A DNA stretch of 64,000 nt. It comes from an uncultured Ignavibacteriota bacterium. GTDB taxonomy: Bacteria; Bacteroidota; Ignavibacteria; UBA10030; UBA8401. Shown piece by piece: positions 1,128-44,580 of the stretch. The DNA is taken from assembly GCA_903861125.1 (NCBI GenBank), contig CAIOTF010000017.1, positions 62,001 to 126,000 on the forward strand. The letters are read 5' to 3'. Below the pieces are notes generated by a model. The model was given only the letters and a program-made list of their open reading frames with translations, did not search any database and was not told the origin of the DNA. Position 1 is the first letter of the stretch; every line of letters begins with the position of its first letter. The translations under genes and the position numbers were made by a program.

Positions 1128-1679
1128 TTATTCAAACTCTTCCGCTCGCCAGCCCTTGCTCCGTTTTTCTCCGATTACGCCGAGAACTTTATCCGTAAAG
1201 GCACCGACATATTCATCAACGCTTTTCGGAACGAAATACAGCGGCGATGAAATCGGCATGATGACTGCGCCGTAACTTGAGAGTTTGCTCAATTGTTCCA
1301 GTGTTAACGTTGACAGCGGTGTCTCGCGTACGCAGATCACCAGTTTATACCGTTCTTTTAATGCGACCTGCGCAGTCCGCGTGATCAGTGAATCGCCGAT
1401 GCCGGACGCGATCTTCCCGATCGTTGATGTGGAACAGGGAAGGATGACATATGCATCGAAAAAGTTTGAACCGGAAGCGATCGGCGCCGTGAGATCCTTA
1501 TCGTCGAACCGGCGTTTCACAAAAGGATCGAGATCGGTCTCGTCCATGTTCAATTCGTCTTTCAGCAACGCTTTGCCCCATTTGCTGACGACGAGGAATT
1601 TATCCGAATCTGATTTTTTAAGAAAATCAAGTGCGTATACTGCGCCGGAACTTCCTGTGATGCCTAAAACTATTTTCAT
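1128..1679 (-). CDS. ubiX: UbiX-type flavin prenyltransferase
   Basis: Predicted to prenylate FMN to make the prFMN cofactor of UbiD decarboxylases. The protein has 183 aa, the normal length. It opens MKIVLGITGSSGAVYA, the flavin-binding loop, and carries the conserved ILPCSTSTIGKIASGIGDSL and VICVRETPLSTLTL segments and the MPISSPLYF C-terminal motif. I chose the ATG at 1679 because it gives the family-standard N-terminus; an in-frame TTG at 1697 would add six residues without a better ribosome site. It lies between ubiA and ubiD on the minus strand with short gaps, so co-transcription is likely. Confidence 0.93.
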   Translation of the reverse strand: MKIVLGITGSSGAVYALDFLKKSDSDKFLVVSKWGKALLKDELNMDETDLDPFVKRRFDDKDLTAPIASGSNFFDAYVILPCSTSTIGKIASGIGDSLITRTAQVALKERYKLVICVRETPLSTLTLEQLSKLSSYGAVIMPISSPLYFVPKSVDEYVGAFTDKVLGVIGEKRSKGWRAEEFE

Positions 1680-1753
1680 AATAAAGCGGGTATTCAATAC
1701 ATGGTGTTAGCTATTAGGAAGAACTTTGGTCAACAGGAACCACCTAATGCCTT

Positions 1754-2638
1754 TTAGATACTCATAAGAATCATAAACAGAACACTGAACCCAACCACAA
1801 TGTTGATCTTAAAAAATGCCAGTTCAACATCTTCCGCTTTATGCTGTTCAAACCAGAGAAGAAATCCGCTCAGCAGCAGGAATGGTAAAGCTATCAAAGC
1901 CTTTAACGAAATCAAAACAAGGGCTAGAAGGACCAAAAATGCCAGAATATGCAGAACTCCGGAAATTTGTAAAGCCTTCTTTTTCCCAAACCGTGAAGGA
2001 AACGAGAATAAACCGGCTTTTTTGTCGAACTCTTCATCAAGGGTAGAATAGATGATGTCAAATCCCGTTGCCCAAAATAGATTGAATAGAGGGAGCAAAA
2101 GAGCTATTCCAATATGTTCTACGGAACCAGTTACCGCAAAGAAACCGCCTAATGGACCCATTGCTAATCCCATACCAACGCCAAAATGTGCAAGAGGCGT
2201 AAACCGTTTTAAATACGGATAGATGATAAAAACAACCAGCGGAATGGGGGAAAGATAGAAGCAAAAATCCGAGATCATTTTCGCCGAGATCAGATACAAC
2301 ACTAATCCAAACAAAAGAACGCCGTAACTTTCTTTTAAGTTCATTGTGCCGCTTGGCAGTTCACGCTTGATTGTGCGGGGATTGTGCTTGTCTATTTCAC
2401 GGTCGATAATGCGATTCAGAGTCATGGCAACAAGTCTTGCGCCGACGGCCGCTGTTAGAACGAGTACCAGTAGTAGAATTCGGGGTCTTTCTTTTGAAGC
2501 CAGGAACACACCGCTATAAATCATTGGAAGCGAGAAGAGCGTATGTTCAATTTTAATAAACGATAGATATTTTTTCAAATTTTCACAGATAGTTGTTAAG
2601 AAATCTTTTAAAGGTACCGAAATTTTGCCGTTTAACAA
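1754..2638 (-). CDS. UbiA-family polyprenyltransferase (4-hydroxybenzoate/MqnP type)
   Basis: Membrane prenyltransferase expected to attach an isoprenoid tail to an aromatic quinone precursor. The first Asp-rich motif is visible as NRIIDREIDKHNPRT and the second as DIIYSTLDEEFDKKAG, both needed for Mg-diphosphate binding; multiple hydrophobic helices follow. The frame opens at a TTG at 2638. A second in-frame TTG at 2578 would start the protein at KKYLSFIKIEHTLFSLP, which matches the usual UbiA N-terminus better; no ATG is available near either. It heads the minus-strand trio with ubiX and ubiD, consistent with menaquinone biosynthesis. Confidence 0.88.
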   Translation of the reverse strand: MLNGKISVPLKDFLTTICENLKKYLSFIKIEHTLFSLPMIYSGVFLASKERPRILLLVLVLTAAVGARLVAMTLNRIIDREIDKHNPRTIKRELPSGTMNLKESYGVLLFGLVLYLISAKMISDFCFYLSPIPLVVFIIYPYLKRFTPLAHFGVGMGLAMGPLGGFFAVTGSVEHIGIALLLPLFNLFWATGFDIIYSTLDEEFDKKAGLFSFPSRFGKKKALQISGVLHILAFLVLLALVLISLKALIALPFLLLSGFLLWFEQHKAEDVELAFFKINIVVGFSVLFMILMSI

Positions 2639-2666
2639 AGGTGATTTTTTGAACAGTGCTCTCTTC

Positions 2667-2697
2667 TTTGTTCACATTCTATAATTTCTTATATTCA
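2667..2697 (+). promoter_or_regulatory. Promoter of the isocitrate dehydrogenase gene (Bacteroidota-type)
   Basis: TTTG at 2667-2670 is followed after 19 bases by TATATTCA at 2690-2697. This is close to the TTTG-N19/20-TAnnTTTG promoter of Bacteroidota. The gene's Shine-Dalgarno sequence and ATG lie about 30 bp further on. The same TATATTCA element recurs upstream of prfC and the enoyl-CoA hydratase in this window. Confidence 0.45.
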
Positions 2698-2723
2698 TTA
2701 AAATTTTGAATAAGAGGAGACGA

Positions 2724-3740
2724 ATGCACAATATTACACTCATTCCGGGAGATGGAATAGGTCCGAGTATTACGGAAGCAACAGTTCGTGTTATCGAAGC
2801 GACCGGTGTTGATATCCGGTGGGATGAACAATATGCCGGAATGGCGGGAATTGAAAAGCATAAGGATCCTATTCCGGAGCAGACAATAGCTTCATTATCG
2901 CTGAACAAAGTGGCATTGAAAGGTCCGTTGACAACGCAGTTGGGAAAAGGATTCCGCAGCGTGAATGTTGCGTTGCGTAAAGAATTTGACCTTTATGTGA
3001 ATCTGCGTCCTGCTAAATCGTTCGAAGGTGTACCGTCACGGTACGCCGATGTTGATATCGTGATGTTCCGCGAGAACATCGAAGAATTTTATTCGGGGAT
3101 CGAGCATTACATTGATGCGCAAAAGAGTGCCGCAGAGACGATTGGCATTATTACACGATACGGCAGTGAGCGTATAGTGCGTGCAGCATTTGATTATGCG
3201 CGAAAGTTCAACCGGAAGAAAGTTTCGATCGTTCATAAAGCGAATATTATGAAATTCACCGGAGGCCTTTTTCTTGAAGTGGCGAAAAAGGTTGCGGAAG
3301 AATTTCCGGAAATACAATGCAACGACGTTATTATCGACAATATGGCGATGCAGCTTGTGCTGAATCCGAATCAATATGATGTGATCGTTACAACAAATTT
3401 ATTCGGCGACATTCTTTCCGATCTCTGCTCGGGTTTGGTTGGCGGACTTGGTGTTGCTCCCGGTGCAAATATCGGCAGGGATGCGGCGATATTCGAAGCT
3501 GTCCACGGCAGTGCACCCGATATCGCAGGAAAGGATATTGCGAATCCATCCGCATTGATCCTTGCGTCGGCAATGATGCTGGATCATATTGGAGAACACG
3601 CTGCTGCAGAAAAAATCTATAAAGCAATTCGCGAAACATTGAGAAATCCCAAAGAAGTGACGAAGGATCTGAATCCGGCATCAAACGTGGGAACGAAACA
3701 GTTCGCTGAATTTATTGTTCAGCACATCAAATCAAATTAA
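2724..3740 (+). CDS. NAD-dependent isocitrate dehydrogenase (isocitrate/isopropylmalate family)
   Basis: Oxidative decarboxylation of isocitrate to 2-oxoglutarate in the TCA cycle. The protein has 338 aa. Its N-terminus ITLIPGDGIGPSI, the FRENIEEFYSGIEHYI substrate loop and the VIVTTNLFGDILSDLCSGLV motif match the short NAD-type enzymes. So does the coenzyme region EAVHGSAPDIAGKDIANPSA. Isopropylmalate dehydrogenase is less likely because no leu genes are nearby and the substrate loop is of the isocitrate type. The ATG at 2724 is chosen because AGAGGAG lies just upstream; an upstream in-frame TTG at 2706 lacks one. It appears to be a single-gene unit. Confidence 0.9.
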   Translation: MHNITLIPGDGIGPSITEATVRVIEATGVDIRWDEQYAGMAGIEKHKDPIPEQTIASLSLNKVALKGPLTTQLGKGFRSVNVALRKEFDLYVNLRPAKSFEGVPSRYADVDIVMFRENIEEFYSGIEHYIDAQKSAAETIGIITRYGSERIVRAAFDYARKFNRKKVSIVHKANIMKFTGGLFLEVAKKVAEEFPEIQCNDVIIDNMAMQLVLNPNQYDVIVTTNLFGDILSDLCSGLVGGLGVAPGANIGRDAAIFEAVHGSAPDIAGKDIANPSALILASAMMLDHIGEHAAAEKIYKAIRETLRNPKEVTKDLNPASNVGTKQFAEFIVQHIKSN

Positions 3741-3789
3741 ACAATCACTCAGCAAACACACGCTACGGTAGAACTGCAATACGACAATA

Positions 3790-4794
3790 ATGAACATTGG
3801 TAAAATACATATTGATCGCCCGTTGATCCTTGCCCCAATGGAAGATGTTACGGATATGCCATTCCGTTTGGTCTGTAAAAAACTGGGCGCAGATATCATG
3901 TATTCTGAATTTGTCAATTCGGATGGATTGGTACGCAACAACAAAAAAACGTTTGAAAAGATGAAGTTCCTTGAAGAAGAACGAGTATTCGGAATTCAGC
4001 TTTACGGTGGTGATGAAAATGCCATGGAAGGGGCTGCAGAAATGGCGGATACGCTCAATCCGGATCTGATCGACATCAACTGCGGATGCTGGGTGAAAAA
4101 AGTTGCCGGCCGGGGAGCAGGGGCAGGATTGTTGAAAGATCTTCCGCGTATGGAACGCATTGTTGCGAATGTGGTAAAATCAACCCGGCTTCCGGTAACG
4201 GTAAAGACGCGTCTGGGCTGGGATGAAAATTCGATCAAGATAGTTGAAGTTGCAAAGATGCTGGAAGGTATTGGAGTGCAGGGCCTTACGGTTCATTGCC
4301 GTACGCGATCGCAGGGACACAGTGGTGACCCTGATTATTCCTGGATTTCCAAAGTGAAGCAGGCGGTGAGTATGCCGGTTTTTATAAACGGCAGCCTGGT
4401 CGAACCGAAACAGATCAAAGAAGTATTCGAAGATACCGGATGCGACGGTGTGATGATCGGACGGGGAGCGATCGATAATCCCTGGATCTTTGCCGATACG
4501 AAACATTATTTTGCAACTGGAGAACTTACACCAAAACGGACCCTTGCAGAACGGATTGATAAATGTGTTGAGCTGCTCACACTTTCCGTTGAGTATAAGG
4601 GTGAAAAACGTGCCGTGACTGAAATGCGGAAATTCTACATCGGATATTTGAAAGGTGAGCCGAATGCGGCAAAACTACGGAATCATTTAATGCATTTTTT
4701 CGAGGCTGCTCCGATCGTCGATATTCTTTATTCCGTAAAAGAAAAAGGCTTAATCGATGATGAAAGATTTCCACACGTGCAATCTGCCGCTTGA
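3790..4794 (+). CDS. tRNA-dihydrouridine synthase (DusB-like)
   Basis: FMN enzyme that reduces uridine to dihydrouridine in tRNA. The protein has 334 aa. It opens with LILAPMEDVTDMPFR (the FMN-binding start of the barrel), followed by INCGCWVKKV with the catalytic cysteine, then VTVKTRLGWDE, TVHCRTRSQGHSG and GVMIGRGAIDNPW. The catalytic Cys (residue 100) is followed by Trp instead of the usual Pro, while the rest of the active-site loop with the downstream GAGAGLL is intact. The gene follows the isocitrate dehydrogenase by about 50 bp and may be read through from it. No strong ribosome site is visible. Confidence 0.92.
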   Translation: MNIGKIHIDRPLILAPMEDVTDMPFRLVCKKLGADIMYSEFVNSDGLVRNNKKTFEKMKFLEEERVFGIQLYGGDENAMEGAAEMADTLNPDLIDINCGCWVKKVAGRGAGAGLLKDLPRMERIVANVVKSTRLPVTVKTRLGWDENSIKIVEVAKMLEGIGVQGLTVHCRTRSQGHSGDPDYSWISKVKQAVSMPVFINGSLVEPKQIKEVFEDTGCDGVMIGRGAIDNPWIFADTKHYFATGELTPKRTLAERIDKCVELLTLSVEYKGEKRAVTEMRKFYIGYLKGEPNAAKLRNHLMHFFEAAPIVDILYSVKEKGLIDDERFPHVQSAA

Positions 4795-39721: not shown

Positions 39722-39785
39722 TGTAGGTGCGGACGGCAGTCCGCGCCAAAAGCAAAAACGGAACGGTCTTCCGACCGTTCCTACA
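39722..39785. repeat. Inverted pair of REP-like palindromes upstream of RAYT
   Basis: Two hairpins face each other. GTAG (39723-39726) is followed by GCGGAC-GGCA-GTCCGC (39729-39744); then GGAACGGTC-TTCC-GACCGTTCC (39760-39781) is followed by CTAC, the complement of GTAG. TGTAGG and CCTACA form the outer ends. A GTAG tetranucleotide next to a palindrome, arranged as an inverted pair beside a RAYT gene, is the classical REP/BIME layout. Confidence 0.75.
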
Positions 39786-39792
39786 TGAGGAT

Positions 39793-40308
39793 ATGAACTA
39801 TAAAAGACACAAACAGTATCGTTTGCCTTATTTCAATTATGCTTCTACCGGTTTGTATTTTGTGACTATATGTTCTCATCACCGGGAAAATATCTTCGGA
39901 ACTGTTGTAAACCGAGAAGTCGTCTTGTCAAAAATTGGTCTGTGTATTTTTGATTGCTTGAATAATCTTCCATTGAAATTATCGTATGTGACACTTGATG
40001 AATTTGTTATCATGCCAAATCATCTGCATGCAATTATCCAAATTGTTAACCCAAACATTGATCGGACGTTACATGAAAAAAGATTCCAACCTGAGAAAGC
40101 TTCATTGTCGATAATAATTCGCAATATAAAATCAACCGTTACATTATTAATAAGAAGAGATCTCGCGGAAGCGAAAGTATGGCAACCCCGATTTCATGAT
40201 CGAATTATTAGAAATGATCGTGAATTACATTCAATACGGAAATATATTCAGGACAATCCGATGCAATGGGAGGAAGATAGAAATAATCCTGAAAATATAA
40301 TGATGTAA
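39793..40308 (+). CDS. REP-associated tyrosine transposase (RAYT, Y1_Tnp)
   Basis: HUH/Y1 single-strand transposase of 171 aa. YASTGLYFVTICSHHRENIF opens it; the HUH pair is IMPNHLHAII (H77, H79) and the nucleophile is in IRKYIQDNPMQW (Y151). Y1_Tnp proteins of this clade mobilise REP sequences. ATG at 39793 is chosen; an upstream in-frame GTG at 39727 would place the start inside the REP element. The gene is intact and sits just behind an inverted REP pair. Confidence 0.9.
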   Translation: MNYKRHKQYRLPYFNYASTGLYFVTICSHHRENIFGTVVNREVVLSKIGLCIFDCLNNLPLKLSYVTLDEFVIMPNHLHAIIQIVNPNIDRTLHEKRFQPEKASLSIIIRNIKSTVTLLIRRDLAEAKVWQPRFHDRIIRNDRELHSIRKYIQDNPMQWEEDRNNPENIMM

Positions 40309-42356: not shown

Positions 42357-42466
42357 TGCAATCACTCTCTTCGGATTTACAATTGCCATACGTTGTTTCT
42401 CAAAGCGGAAGCTCTATTAGAACTCCGCTATAAAACTATTTGATATCACTTTTTAGTGTGTCTCTA

Positions 42467-43243
42467 ATGAACTTCCAGCACATTACTCTTTCCATCGAAA
42501 ACCACATCGCACGCGTTACGCTCAACCGTCCACCAGTGAATGCGTTGAACAAAGAACTCGTTGCTGAACTGGTAAACGTAGCGCATTTGTTCAAATCAAA
42601 TGATGATGTCTGGGTTGTTGCCGTTACAACCGCAGGGAAAAATTTCTGCGCAGGGGCCGATTTGAAAGAACGTGCCGGAGTTTCACAGGAAAACGTGATC
42701 GATTTTGTCAGTGGAATTCAGTCTGCAGTCGCCGCCTGGTGCGAAATACCTCAGCCGGTGATAATGGGAATCAACGGAGCGGCGCTTGGCGGGGGACTGG
42801 AATTTGCCCTTTCCGGCGACATCATCGCTGCAAGTGATACGGCAATGCTTGGATTACCGGAAACGAGTTTAGGAATAATTCCGGCAGCAGGTGGAACGCA
42901 GCGTCTTGCCCAACGGACATCGTCCGGCACGGCAAAAAAATGGATCTTGACGGCGAAAAAATTTACGGCACAAGAAGCAAAAGATGACGGAGTTATTGAT
43001 TACATCTTTTCTGCCGAATCGTTCATTGGTGAGTTTGAAAAAATTGTTCTACAGGTCGCATCCAATGCGCCGCTTGCACTCCGCCAGGCAAAAAAAGCTA
43101 TAGAATCATCGTATAGTGACTGGCTTATGGACGGCTTTGAAAATGAAAGAACGTATTACCAGCCGCTGATCCCGACCGACGATAGACTTGAAGCATTGAA
43201 AGCATTCGGAGAAAAACGAAAACCGGAATGGAAAGGGAAGTGA
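42467..43243 (+). CDS. Enoyl-CoA hydratase/isomerase family protein
   Basis: Crotonase-fold enzyme of 258 aa. VTLNRPPVNALNKEL opens it, followed by the oxyanion-hole pair NFCAGADLKER and GINGAALGGGLEFALSGDI, and the acid/base region LPETSLGIIPAAGGTQRL with the glutamate of hydratases. This points to hydration of an enoyl-CoA; the exact chain length or a branched substrate such as methylglutaconyl-CoA is open. ATG at 42467 is preferred to an upstream extension. It ends 5 bp from the convergent metal-transporter gene. Confidence 0.9.
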   Translation: MNFQHITLSIENHIARVTLNRPPVNALNKELVAELVNVAHLFKSNDDVWVVAVTTAGKNFCAGADLKERAGVSQENVIDFVSGIQSAVAAWCEIPQPVIMGINGAALGGGLEFALSGDIIAASDTAMLGLPETSLGIIPAAGGTQRLAQRTSSGTAKKWILTAKKFTAQEAKDDGVIDYIFSAESFIGEFEKIVLQVASNAPLALRQAKKAIESSYSDWLMDGFENERTYYQPLIPTDDRLEALKAFGEKRKPEWKGK

Positions 43244-43248
43244 CCGTT

Positions 43249-44580
43249 TTATAATAGAGTAAAGAAAAGTGCCGCAAGAAATCCCACGATCGTAGCAAGA
43301 CCGACCTCAGCACCACCGTCCTCATATGCCTCGGGCATCATAACCGAAGCAACCATAGCAAGAATACCGCCGCCGGCCAATGCTTCAACAAGCGTTATAA
43401 TTGTTGGTGCGGCAGTTAAAAGAAAAATATTTCCGAGTGCTGCCGCTGCGATTCCCACAACGATCAATGCTGTCCACAACAGAAAAATCTTCGATGTTCT
43501 GTACCCGGCTTCGATCATGTTCATGGAACTGCCGATTGACTCAGGAAGATTTGACAGAAAGACCGCAAGAAGAAATGTGAAGGAATAGGTCTCAAGCGAA
43601 AAAAATCCAGCACCGATAATGATCGATTCCGGAATGGTATCCATCATCACTCCCATAAACAGCGCGAGAGGATTTCCGGAAATGACACTCCTCTTCATAT
43701 ACGTAAGTTCTTCCGCTTTCGACAACCGTTTGATATTCGATGCGGCAACCTTGCGCCAATGCTGAGCTGCGATCATGCCGCGCAGATTCCGTACGTTGTG
43801 TCGTATCCGTTTGGAGTTCAGCTGTTCAACGGAACGTCGTAATCCCGGCGAGATTTCCATCAGCGCATCGAATTGTTCTTTTCCGATCTTCCATAATTGC
43901 GAATCCTCTTTTGCCGCCGCAGTTGCCGTTCGGGTATCGTTATGCAGCAGCGCCATCTCTCCGAATGATTGTCCGGGACCGAGTGTAGCAATTACTGTCG
44001 GTTCACTTTCGGATCCGGTGATGATCTCGATCATTCCCTGACTGATCAGATACAGAGCATTGCCGTGATCTCCCTGACGGAATAAAATTTCTCCTGCTTT
44101 TACCTGTACCGGTTCAACGCACGTCAGCACTCCTTCCATCTCTTCCGGAGGGAGTGAGCGGACAAGTTCTACTTTCGATAGTTGCCGAAGAATAATGCTC
44201 GAGTCCTGCCGTTTCTGCCGCAGGTAATAGAACTTTGCAAGAGCCGGGTGACGGATAGCCGCACCTTTTTTTTCCAGCCATTTGTTCACCAAATAATAGA
44301 TCAATCCGCCGATAATAAAACCCGATGCCACCCATATCCATGCATCCACACCGCTGAAGTGAGCTTTGTCGGTAAGACGGCGTGCTCCTTTAAATGCAAG
44401 TTCAATCGCCAGCGCTTGTATCAATGCGCCGGTGCCGAATGCCATAATAATGGCATTGGTGCGCTGTGTCGGTTTTGCGTAAACACCAATGGTGGTTCCG
44501 ATGATCATGGATACCATGGAGAGGGCTGCCAAACCGGCCGCAAGAAGAACTCTGGTAATATCGAATGTTATTAATTCCAT
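43249..44580 (-). CDS. ZIP-like membrane transporter with inserted cyclic-nucleotide-binding domain
   Basis: A 443-aa fusion. Three N-terminal helices (about 8-30, 43-62 and 81-100) are followed by a cyclic-nucleotide-binding domain at about 125-245 (VKAGEILFRQGDHGNALYL, and the phosphate-binding cassette GQSFGEMALLHNDTRTATAA with its Arg). The C-terminal membrane half (about 300-443) carries MDTIPESIIIG and LSNLPESIGSS, which sit where ZIP metal permeases have HNxPEG and HExPHE. I infer a divalent-metal or related permease gated by a cyclic nucleotide. The usual His ligands are replaced by Asp/Asn and Glu/Ser, so substrate and activity are uncertain. Confidence 0.7.
   Translation of the reverse strand: MELITFDITRVLLAAGLAALSMVSMIIGTTIGVYAKPTQRTNAIIMAFGTGALIQALAIELAFKGARRLTDKAHFSGVDAWIWVASGFIIGGLIYYLVNKWLEKKGAAIRHPALAKFYYLRQKRQDSSIILRQLSKVELVRSLPPEEMEGVLTCVEPVQVKAGEILFRQGDHGNALYLISQGMIEIITGSESEPTVIATLGPGQSFGEMALLHNDTRTATAAAKEDSQLWKIGKEQFDALMEISPGLRRSVEQLNSKRIRHNVRNLRGMIAAQHWRKVAASNIKRLSKAEELTYMKRSVISGNPLALFMGVMMDTIPESIIIGAGFFSLETYSFTFLLAVFLSNLPESIGSSMNMIEAGYRTSKIFLLWTALIVVGIAAAALGNIFLLTAAPTIITLVEALAGGGILAMVASVMMPEAYEDGGAEVGLATIVGFLAALFFTLL

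Follow-up and report, generated by a model that had tools for sequence, protein, structure and literature searches.

The window, the whole stretch of 64,000 nucleotides analysed here, comes from the genome of an uncultured Ignavibacteriota bacterium (4.19 Mb in 54 contigs, 100% complete) and carries on its minus strand, at 43249..44580, an uninterrupted open reading frame of 443 codons. Its Pfam matches and near-full-length homologues identify the 443-amino-acid product as a protein of predicted ZIP fold with an inserted cyclic-nucleotide-binding domain (CNBD), arranged as three transmembrane (TM) helices, the CNBD (about residues 121-265) and five TM helices. The N-terminal half of the ZIP fold (TM1-TM3, residues 8-104; 44269..44559) is followed by a linker rich in lysine and arginine (residues 105-120; 44221..44268), the CNBD (residues 121-265; 43786..44220) with its phosphate-binding cassette FGEMALLHNDTRTAT (residues 206-220; 43921..43965), a second linker of low model confidence (residues 266-303; 43672..43785) and the C-terminal half of the ZIP fold (TM4-TM8, residues 304-443; 43252..43671), all on the minus strand. 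This last half includes the motifs DTIPES in TM4 (residues 314-319; 43624..43641) and SNLPES in TM5 (residues 343-348; 43537..43554), both present in the translation as the earlier note on this DNA had read them (the second as NLPES), and MMPEAYEDGG at the end of TM7 (residues 414-423; 43312..43341), a conserved motif placed on the cytosolic side by homology. A convergent enoyl-CoA hydratase gene (Pfam ECH_1) lies at 42440-43243, the gap from stop to stop being five bases. Promoter-like sites numbered 8, against 4.0 (sd 2.1) in shuffled sequences, and terminator-like sites 1 against 1.8. Elsewhere in the window, a small open reading frame (39727-40308, plus strand) has a translation that we take to resemble a REP-associated tyrosine transposase.

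A scan made with six peptides of the window protein detected 83 relatives; the 80 loci that it returned comprise 25 fusions (including L023, split by a frame break, and L027, which starts at a contig end), three fragments that were left out (L031, L032 and L033) and 52 proteins without a CNBD, a sample biased by the choice of peptides. The residue counts given below refer to 28 fusions (the window protein, the 25 loci of this first scan, and L096 and L098 from a search of related genomes), leaving out loci that repeat genomes as well as G020 and G024 (45% and 51% identity), and to the 52 CNBD-less relatives. The latter are open frames of 240-313 amino acids, apart from L052, a fragment of 151 with N-terminal gaps and Gly at the place of Asp314, which was kept in the counts and off the tree. 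Homologues of the window protein in other genomes share 45-88% identity over nearly the whole length. Purifying selection acts on the fusion gene, with dN/dS values against the nearest homologue (L008) of 0.087 for the whole gene, 0.107 for the CNBD and 0.050 for TM4-TM8; against more distant genes, synonymous sites are near or at saturation. The near-full-length homologues and the dN/dS of 0.087 rule out a chance open reading frame or an artefact. The domain order, for which the earlier note had proposed a search, recurs identically in homologues from independent assemblies, which rules out two genes joined by a sequencing error. The fusion architecture is real and conserved.

The inserted domain matches Pfam cNMP_binding (PF00027) at residues 158-242 with 88.4 bits (E 3e-25; cut-off 27.5), and its predicted structure matches CNBD folds over about residues 118-265 with Z scores of 17-20. 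The only other Pfam matches on the protein are Zip and one chance-level DUF; the eight NCBIfam families matched all fall within the CNBD region and under their cut-offs. In the cassette (GEMALL...RTAT, residues 207-220), Gly207, Glu208, Ala210, Arg217 and Ala219 are identical in 28 of the 28 aligned single-CNBD fusions, down to 48% identity; a cassette pattern is found in its strict form in 25 and in its loose form in all 28. In nucleotide-binding CNBDs, these Glu and Arg residues contact the ribose and phosphate of the ligand. Residue 218 is Thr in 15 fusions, Ser in 10, Leu in 2 and Tyr in 1, and does not settle the choice between cAMP and cGMP. These data bear out the proposal of the earlier note that a CNBD with an intact cassette lies inside a loop. 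The fold matches over the same stretch include the channels SthK, MloK1 and HCN, in which the CNBD is C-terminal; in the window protein it is internal to a putative carrier of ZIP fold. Both linkers are partly conserved: G106, R110, H111, P112, A113 and K116 of the first, and W275, N282, R285, L286 and E290 of the second, are invariant in an alignment of 25 fusions (A1: the window protein together with every first-scan fusion but L026). Across all 28 fusions, 5 of the 16 columns of the first linker are invariant (mean top-residue fraction 0.82), and only 2 of the 38 columns of the second.

The assignment of the membrane part relies on profiles and predicted structure. Pfam Zip (PF02535), a domain split here by the CNBD insert, matches residues 291-431 with 27.1 bits (E 3.1e-6), under its curated cut-off of 35.1; it is found at E 0.001 or better in 19 of the 25 A1 members, all of which match cNMP_binding, and at 0.01 or better in the 17 members of a second alignment (A2: six fusion C-terminal halves and eleven CNBD-less proteins). 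AlphaFold2 models were made from A1 (mean pLDDT 71.0) and from A3, the 25 A1 fusions plus 23 CNBD-less relatives (mean pLDDT 76.6); the placement of the domains relative to each other is unreliable in both (pTM 0.53 and 0.58, respectively), and pLDDT is below 50 in the linker between CNBD and TM4 (residues 266-302 and 263-302). TM1-TM3 are helices 8-35, 39-72 and 77-104 in both models. The top VIA-align match of each is BbZIP (8ght; Bordetella bronchiseptica, GufA subfamily), with Z 22.7, rmsd 3.3 and 248 aligned residues for the A1 model (from residue 3 to 443) and Z 21.0, rmsd 3.8 and 236 aligned residues for the A3 model (from residue 2 to 421), followed by the CNBDs of channels, kinases and Crp-type regulators. 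Searched against the PDB, the A2 profile hit five chain sequences of BbZIP at E 8.9e-10 to 2.6e-9 and, as its one further match, a sequence at 0.087. No ZIP appeared among the best 60 of 216 PDB matches of the single sequence, all of them nucleotide-binding proteins, nor among the best 60 matches of the whole fusion profile, all CNBD proteins, because the CNBD fills these lists; the best 50 rows of plain Foldseek were likewise CNBD proteins without a ZIP, and the assessment of the ZIP part therefore relied on VIA-align and the A2 profile.

The membrane part is therefore predicted to be ZIP-like, as the earlier note had suggested, and structure prediction, which that note had named as a check, turned up neither a non-ZIP membrane part nor an insert lacking the nucleotide pocket. 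The window protein shares with BbZIP the eight-helix fold over both halves, the Pro-Glu pairs of TM4 and TM5, whose glutamates (BbZIP E181 and E211) correspond to E318 and E347, and the Pro-Glu ending TM7; unlike BbZIP, it has a CNBD. In place of the HNxPEG and HExPHE motifs of the canonical subfamilies (GufA, LIV-1) it carries DTIPES and SNLPES, and so is not a member of either subfamily as defined by their His metal residues. HExPHE had been given as the ZIP counterpart of SNLPES, a loose comparison, since BbZIP, the nearest ZIP of known structure, reads QDVPEG. The protein is a divergent branch of the ZIPs, filed there by fold and profile and not as a Pfam-grade member.

The CNBD sits in the loop between TM3 and TM4, which is cytosolic by ZIP topology. 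The distribution of positive charges was computed over the 28 fusions: stretches that are cytosolic in ZIPs hold on average 2.2, 7.6, 6.6 and 2.6 Lys plus Arg per sequence (7.6 belonging to residues 98-124) and stretches that lie outside 0.1, 1.5, 0.7, 0.0 and 0.0, the inside loop between TM7 and TM8 (0.0) being an acidic exception. The BbZIP scaffold consists of TM2, TM3, TM7 and TM8 and the transport domain of TM1, TM4, TM5 and TM6 (PMC9278863); during metal release the cytosolic part of TM4 swings away from TM3 and TM7, with a bend at His177 (PMC9873690). As TM3 belongs to the scaffold and TM4 to the transport domain in BbZIP, the CNBD would bridge the two units that shift relative to one another, and nucleotide binding may drive or block their movement. 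The second intracellular loop of human ZIP4 matters for zinc transport, as cited in PMC9278863, and ZIPs are dimers (same source), an arrangement expected likewise for the window protein.

Residues of BbZIP were mapped onto the window protein from the A2 profile alignment, by eye and with the numbering of the BbZIP papers. In TM4, His177, Asn178 and Glu181 correspond to Asp314, Thr315 and Glu318; in TM5, Gln207, Asp208 and Glu211 correspond to Ser343, Asn344 and Glu347; elsewhere, the pairs are Glu240-Gly376, Met99-Leu53, Ser106-Glu60, Asp144-Asn99, His275-Ser412 and Glu276-Val413. BbZIP His177/Asn178/Gln207/Asp208/Glu240 thus face Asp/Thr/Ser/Asn/Gly, and the M2-site residues among them are altered: Asn178 to Thr (Gly, Thr, Val or Leu across the fusions), Asp208 to Asn and Glu240 to Gly. 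Asp314 and Glu347 are kept in all 28 fusions, and Glu318 (Ala in 4), Asn344 (Ser in 4) and Ser343 in 24 each. At the exit site, the place of Asp144 is Asn in 22 fusions and Asp in 6, and that of Glu276 is Val in all 28. Alanine at Asp144 or Glu276 harms transport by BbZIP, and at His177 it is tolerated (PMC9278863). The Asn/Asp and Val found at the two exit-site places count against BbZIP-like transport by the fusions. In ZIP8, His at the filter places makes Zn2+ preferred over Fe2+ and Mn2+ (PMC10372143); Glu60 and Ser343 are taken to be the counterparts of these places in the window protein. Our guess from chemistry is that a His-free site of Asp, Glu, Glu and Asn would favour Mn2+, Fe2+ or another hard cation.

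The CNBD-less ZIP-like proteins (Bacillus, Paenibacillus, Macrococcus, Clostridia, Acidobacteria and others) share the D..PE(S/A), SN.PE and MMPEAYED motifs and are the nearest relatives of the fusions' membrane part in the scan; they lack a CNBD and stand apart from the fusions on the tree. These proteins (L035-L087 except L057; Bacilli and others) form a ZIP-like subfamily devoid of the TM4 and TM5 His. P416, E417 and E420 are identical in the 28 fusions and the 52 CNBD-less relatives, and D421 is found in 26 of 28 and 52 of 52. That Asp and Asn arose with the fusion is ruled out, since 51 of the 52 CNBD-less relatives have Asp at position 314 and all 52 have Asn344, Glu318 and Glu347; replacement of His is thus a property of the wider subfamily and not of the CNBD insert. 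The altered metal residues from which the earlier note argued for a changed substrate or a sensor role are indeed present, although they do not mark the fusion, and the note over-read them; a sensor role has some support in the loss of a metal-site Glu by one subclade (see below).

Judged by record titles, the fusions have two sets of hosts: Bacteroidota/Ignavibacteria, and Competibacteraceae or unplaced Proteobacteria. They are present in 7 of 8 genomes of the genus of the window genome, in 19 of 98 of its order and, among the matches listed, in at least 8 of 395 genomes of a phylum sample (counting rows that cover the CNBD and the membrane part; one of the 8, G050, lacks the N-terminus), where 102 genomes have a match, mostly to the CNBD alone. 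In the class of a Competibacter genome the fusion was found in 2 of 274 genomes, one being the seed genome itself. A search of plasmids matched 352 records, in none of which a single place spanned 80% of the query. A tree of the membrane columns, made by a quick method with SH-aLRT support alone (no bootstrap), set 32 CNBD-bearing rows against 23 CNBD-less ones (out of 52), with an outgroup on a very long branch. All 32 CNBD-bearing rows fall on one side of a branch (SH-aLRT 99), so that the CNBD label needs one change. The ten rows from Competibacteraceae or Proteobacteria group together (SH-aLRT 99) and are nested inside the Bacteroidota fusions by weakly supported branches (63-77), which together with the odd distribution suggests horizontal transfer to the Competibacteraceae.

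Two groups of variants stand out. Four fusions from Competibacteraceae or Proteobacteria (L022, L024, L026 and L029) form a subclade (SH-aLRT 100) in which Glu318 is replaced by Ala and Asn344 by Ser and the cassette is intact; each is the single copy in its genome, and the three tested pairwise (L022, L024 and L029) are under purifying selection, with dN/dS about 0.09. BbZIP-like metal transport is doubtful in this subclade. In two relatives of predicted ZIP fold, L123 (4027-5880, plus strand; from the phylum of the window genome) and L142 (2653-4524, minus strand; from the class of the Competibacter seed), the loop between TM3 and TM4 holds two CNBDs, each protein having two Pfam cNMP_binding stretches, and none of the four domains has the cassette Arg. 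The subclade without Glu318 and the tandem CNBDs without Arg count against a uniform function of the family.

Four class III cyclase domains encoded in the source genome score above their Pfam cut-off; three of them, all but L099, were read for specificity residues and have Lys and Thr at what we take to be the adenylyl-type places. Class III cyclases are found in 41 of 41 related genomes and the fusion in 14, so their presence, equal where the fusion is lacking, indicates no more than an available signal. A second ZIP protein, encoded on a different contig of the source genome, passes the Pfam cut-off with 113.6 bits when taken with its in-frame neighbour. The comparison of neighbouring genes took in 33 loci, the window among them (L014 and L104 being one place; six loci gave no layout, the fusion gene having been missed by the gene caller). 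An enoyl-CoA hydratase gene lies beside the fusion gene in 6 loci, a mixed cluster with one RibD C-terminal protein among its members recurs in 7, a cluster presumably resembling ABC-type permeases in 6, and a creatininase in 4 (duplicate counted). No operon partner with a metal or signalling role is evident among the recurrent neighbours at these 33 loci, and a functional operon partner was rejected because the recurrent genes point to neither. Two distant fusions have other surroundings. Directly downstream of L124 lie genes for an NhaB Na+/H+ antiporter and a second membrane protein (3116-4582 and 1603-2940, both minus strand), the latter without a Pfam match at 1e-5 and, we assume, resembling ion antiporters. 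Directly downstream of L125 are the genes for the small and large subunits of a NiFe-hydrogenase (1143-4114, minus strand), and upstream a CusB/HlyD-like gene; that nickel might be a substrate is a thought.

The fold and the domain order are well supported; we infer nucleotide binding, the identity of the ligand, transport with its substrate and direction, the sign of regulation and the coupling. The reading that we prefer, with a probability of about one half, treats the window protein as a ZIP-fold carrier for divalent metal with an activity controlled by a cyclic nucleotide, cAMP being the likeliest. In its favour are the match to BbZIP, the intact cassette, the charge pattern, the position of the CNBD between TM3 and TM4, the purifying selection, the precedent of SLC9C1 (see below) and the conservation of Asp314 and Glu347 in all fusions and of Glu318 in 24 of 28; the genome's four class III cyclase domains would supply the signal for gating. 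The cytosolic CNBD would link TM3, in the fixed scaffold domain, to TM4, in the moving transport domain; nucleotide bound at Arg217 and Glu208 would reorganise the C-helix (residues 245-265), connected to TM4 by the 266-303 linker, so that the elevator stroke would be favoured or blocked. The metal would be held by Asp314, Glu318 and Glu347 with Asn344 near, in a carboxylate-lined, His-free site that may prefer Mn2+, Fe2+ or another hard divalent cation over Zn2+.

An alternative that we regard as unlikely makes the protein a sensor with little or no transport. The ZIP part would bind metal, or have done so in the past, and relay this through the CNBD, or the CNBD signal would pass through the membrane part to a partner. 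The subclade that lost Glu318 and Asn344 would fit such a role, being still under a dN/dS of about 0.09 (three of four members) and in single copy per genome, as would the loss of most BbZIP M2-site and exit-site residues in the fusions and the genome's second ZIP protein, which scores above the Pfam cut-off. However, the window protein and 23 other fusions of the 28 keep Asp314, Glu318 and Glu347, the CNBD-less relatives keep identical metal-site residues without any sensor domain, and neither an output domain (by Pfam) nor an evident signalling partner gene (in the neighbour loci) accompanies the fusion.

It is improbable that the CNBD, with no nucleotide bound in the cell, serves as a loop module for folding, dimerisation or tethering. 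KCNH channels have CNBD homology domains that do not bind nucleotide, and the tandem domains of L123 and L142 kept their Pfam cNMP_binding match without the cassette Arg; against this stand the five cassette residues identical in every single-CNBD fusion, down to 48% identity, and the cyclase domains of the 41 related genomes, though these include genomes without the fusion. About as improbable is that the same carrier is gated by another nucleotide such as cGMP, cUMP or cCMP: Thr or Ser occupies position 218 in 25 of the 28 fusions, Thr at this place favours cGMP in PKG, and the cUMP-binding PycTIR CNBD matches the models (Z 19.2 and 18.4) on a level with cAMP and cGMP binders, but cAMP-preferring HCN channels have Thr there too, a fold rank gives no ligand identity, and three of the four cyclase domains of the genome read as adenylyl type by their Lys and Thr.

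No ZIP transporter fused to a CNBD was found in the open-licence PMC literature searched (with the broader queries, among the titles and abstract openings listed), in which this architecture is undescribed; a carrier with a fused regulatory CNBD is already known. CNBD-fused MFS transporters are mentioned as a class in a review (PMC10710835), according to which many of the domains joined to bacterial carriers have no known function; they resemble the window protein as bacterial carriers with a CNBD and differ in carrier family. The sperm Na+/H+ exchanger SLC9C1 is likewise a secondary carrier with a CNBD, through which cAMP tunes its activity (PMC6052114), and is thus a precedent for a cAMP-tuned carrier. 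Its carrier fold is different, it has a voltage sensor, and the CNBD of the window protein lies inside the carrier fold; by Pfam the window protein is not an SLC9C1-like exchanger, and the resemblance is in working principle alone. Prokaryotic ZIPs are treated in PMC13192868 and PMC5751234, in passages that make no mention of a CNBD.

With the gated-carrier reading, the window protein would be the first example of direct cyclic-nucleotide gating in an elevator-type metal carrier; we put this broader account forward tentatively. A single insertion would have placed the CNBD between scaffold and transport domain in a histidine-free ZIP, and the fusion would later have reached the Competibacteraceae by horizontal transfer; one subclade would then have lost the metal Glu, and another doubled the CNBD and lost the cassette, giving natural variants that separate transport from signalling. 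The protein-level regulation of ZIP carriers is, to our knowledge, poorly understood. A well-understood sensor placed between the two moving parts of a ZIP elevator would make the allostery of the stroke measurable with one small molecule and, if the reading is true, second-messenger signalling would be tied to bacterial metal uptake without a change in gene expression.
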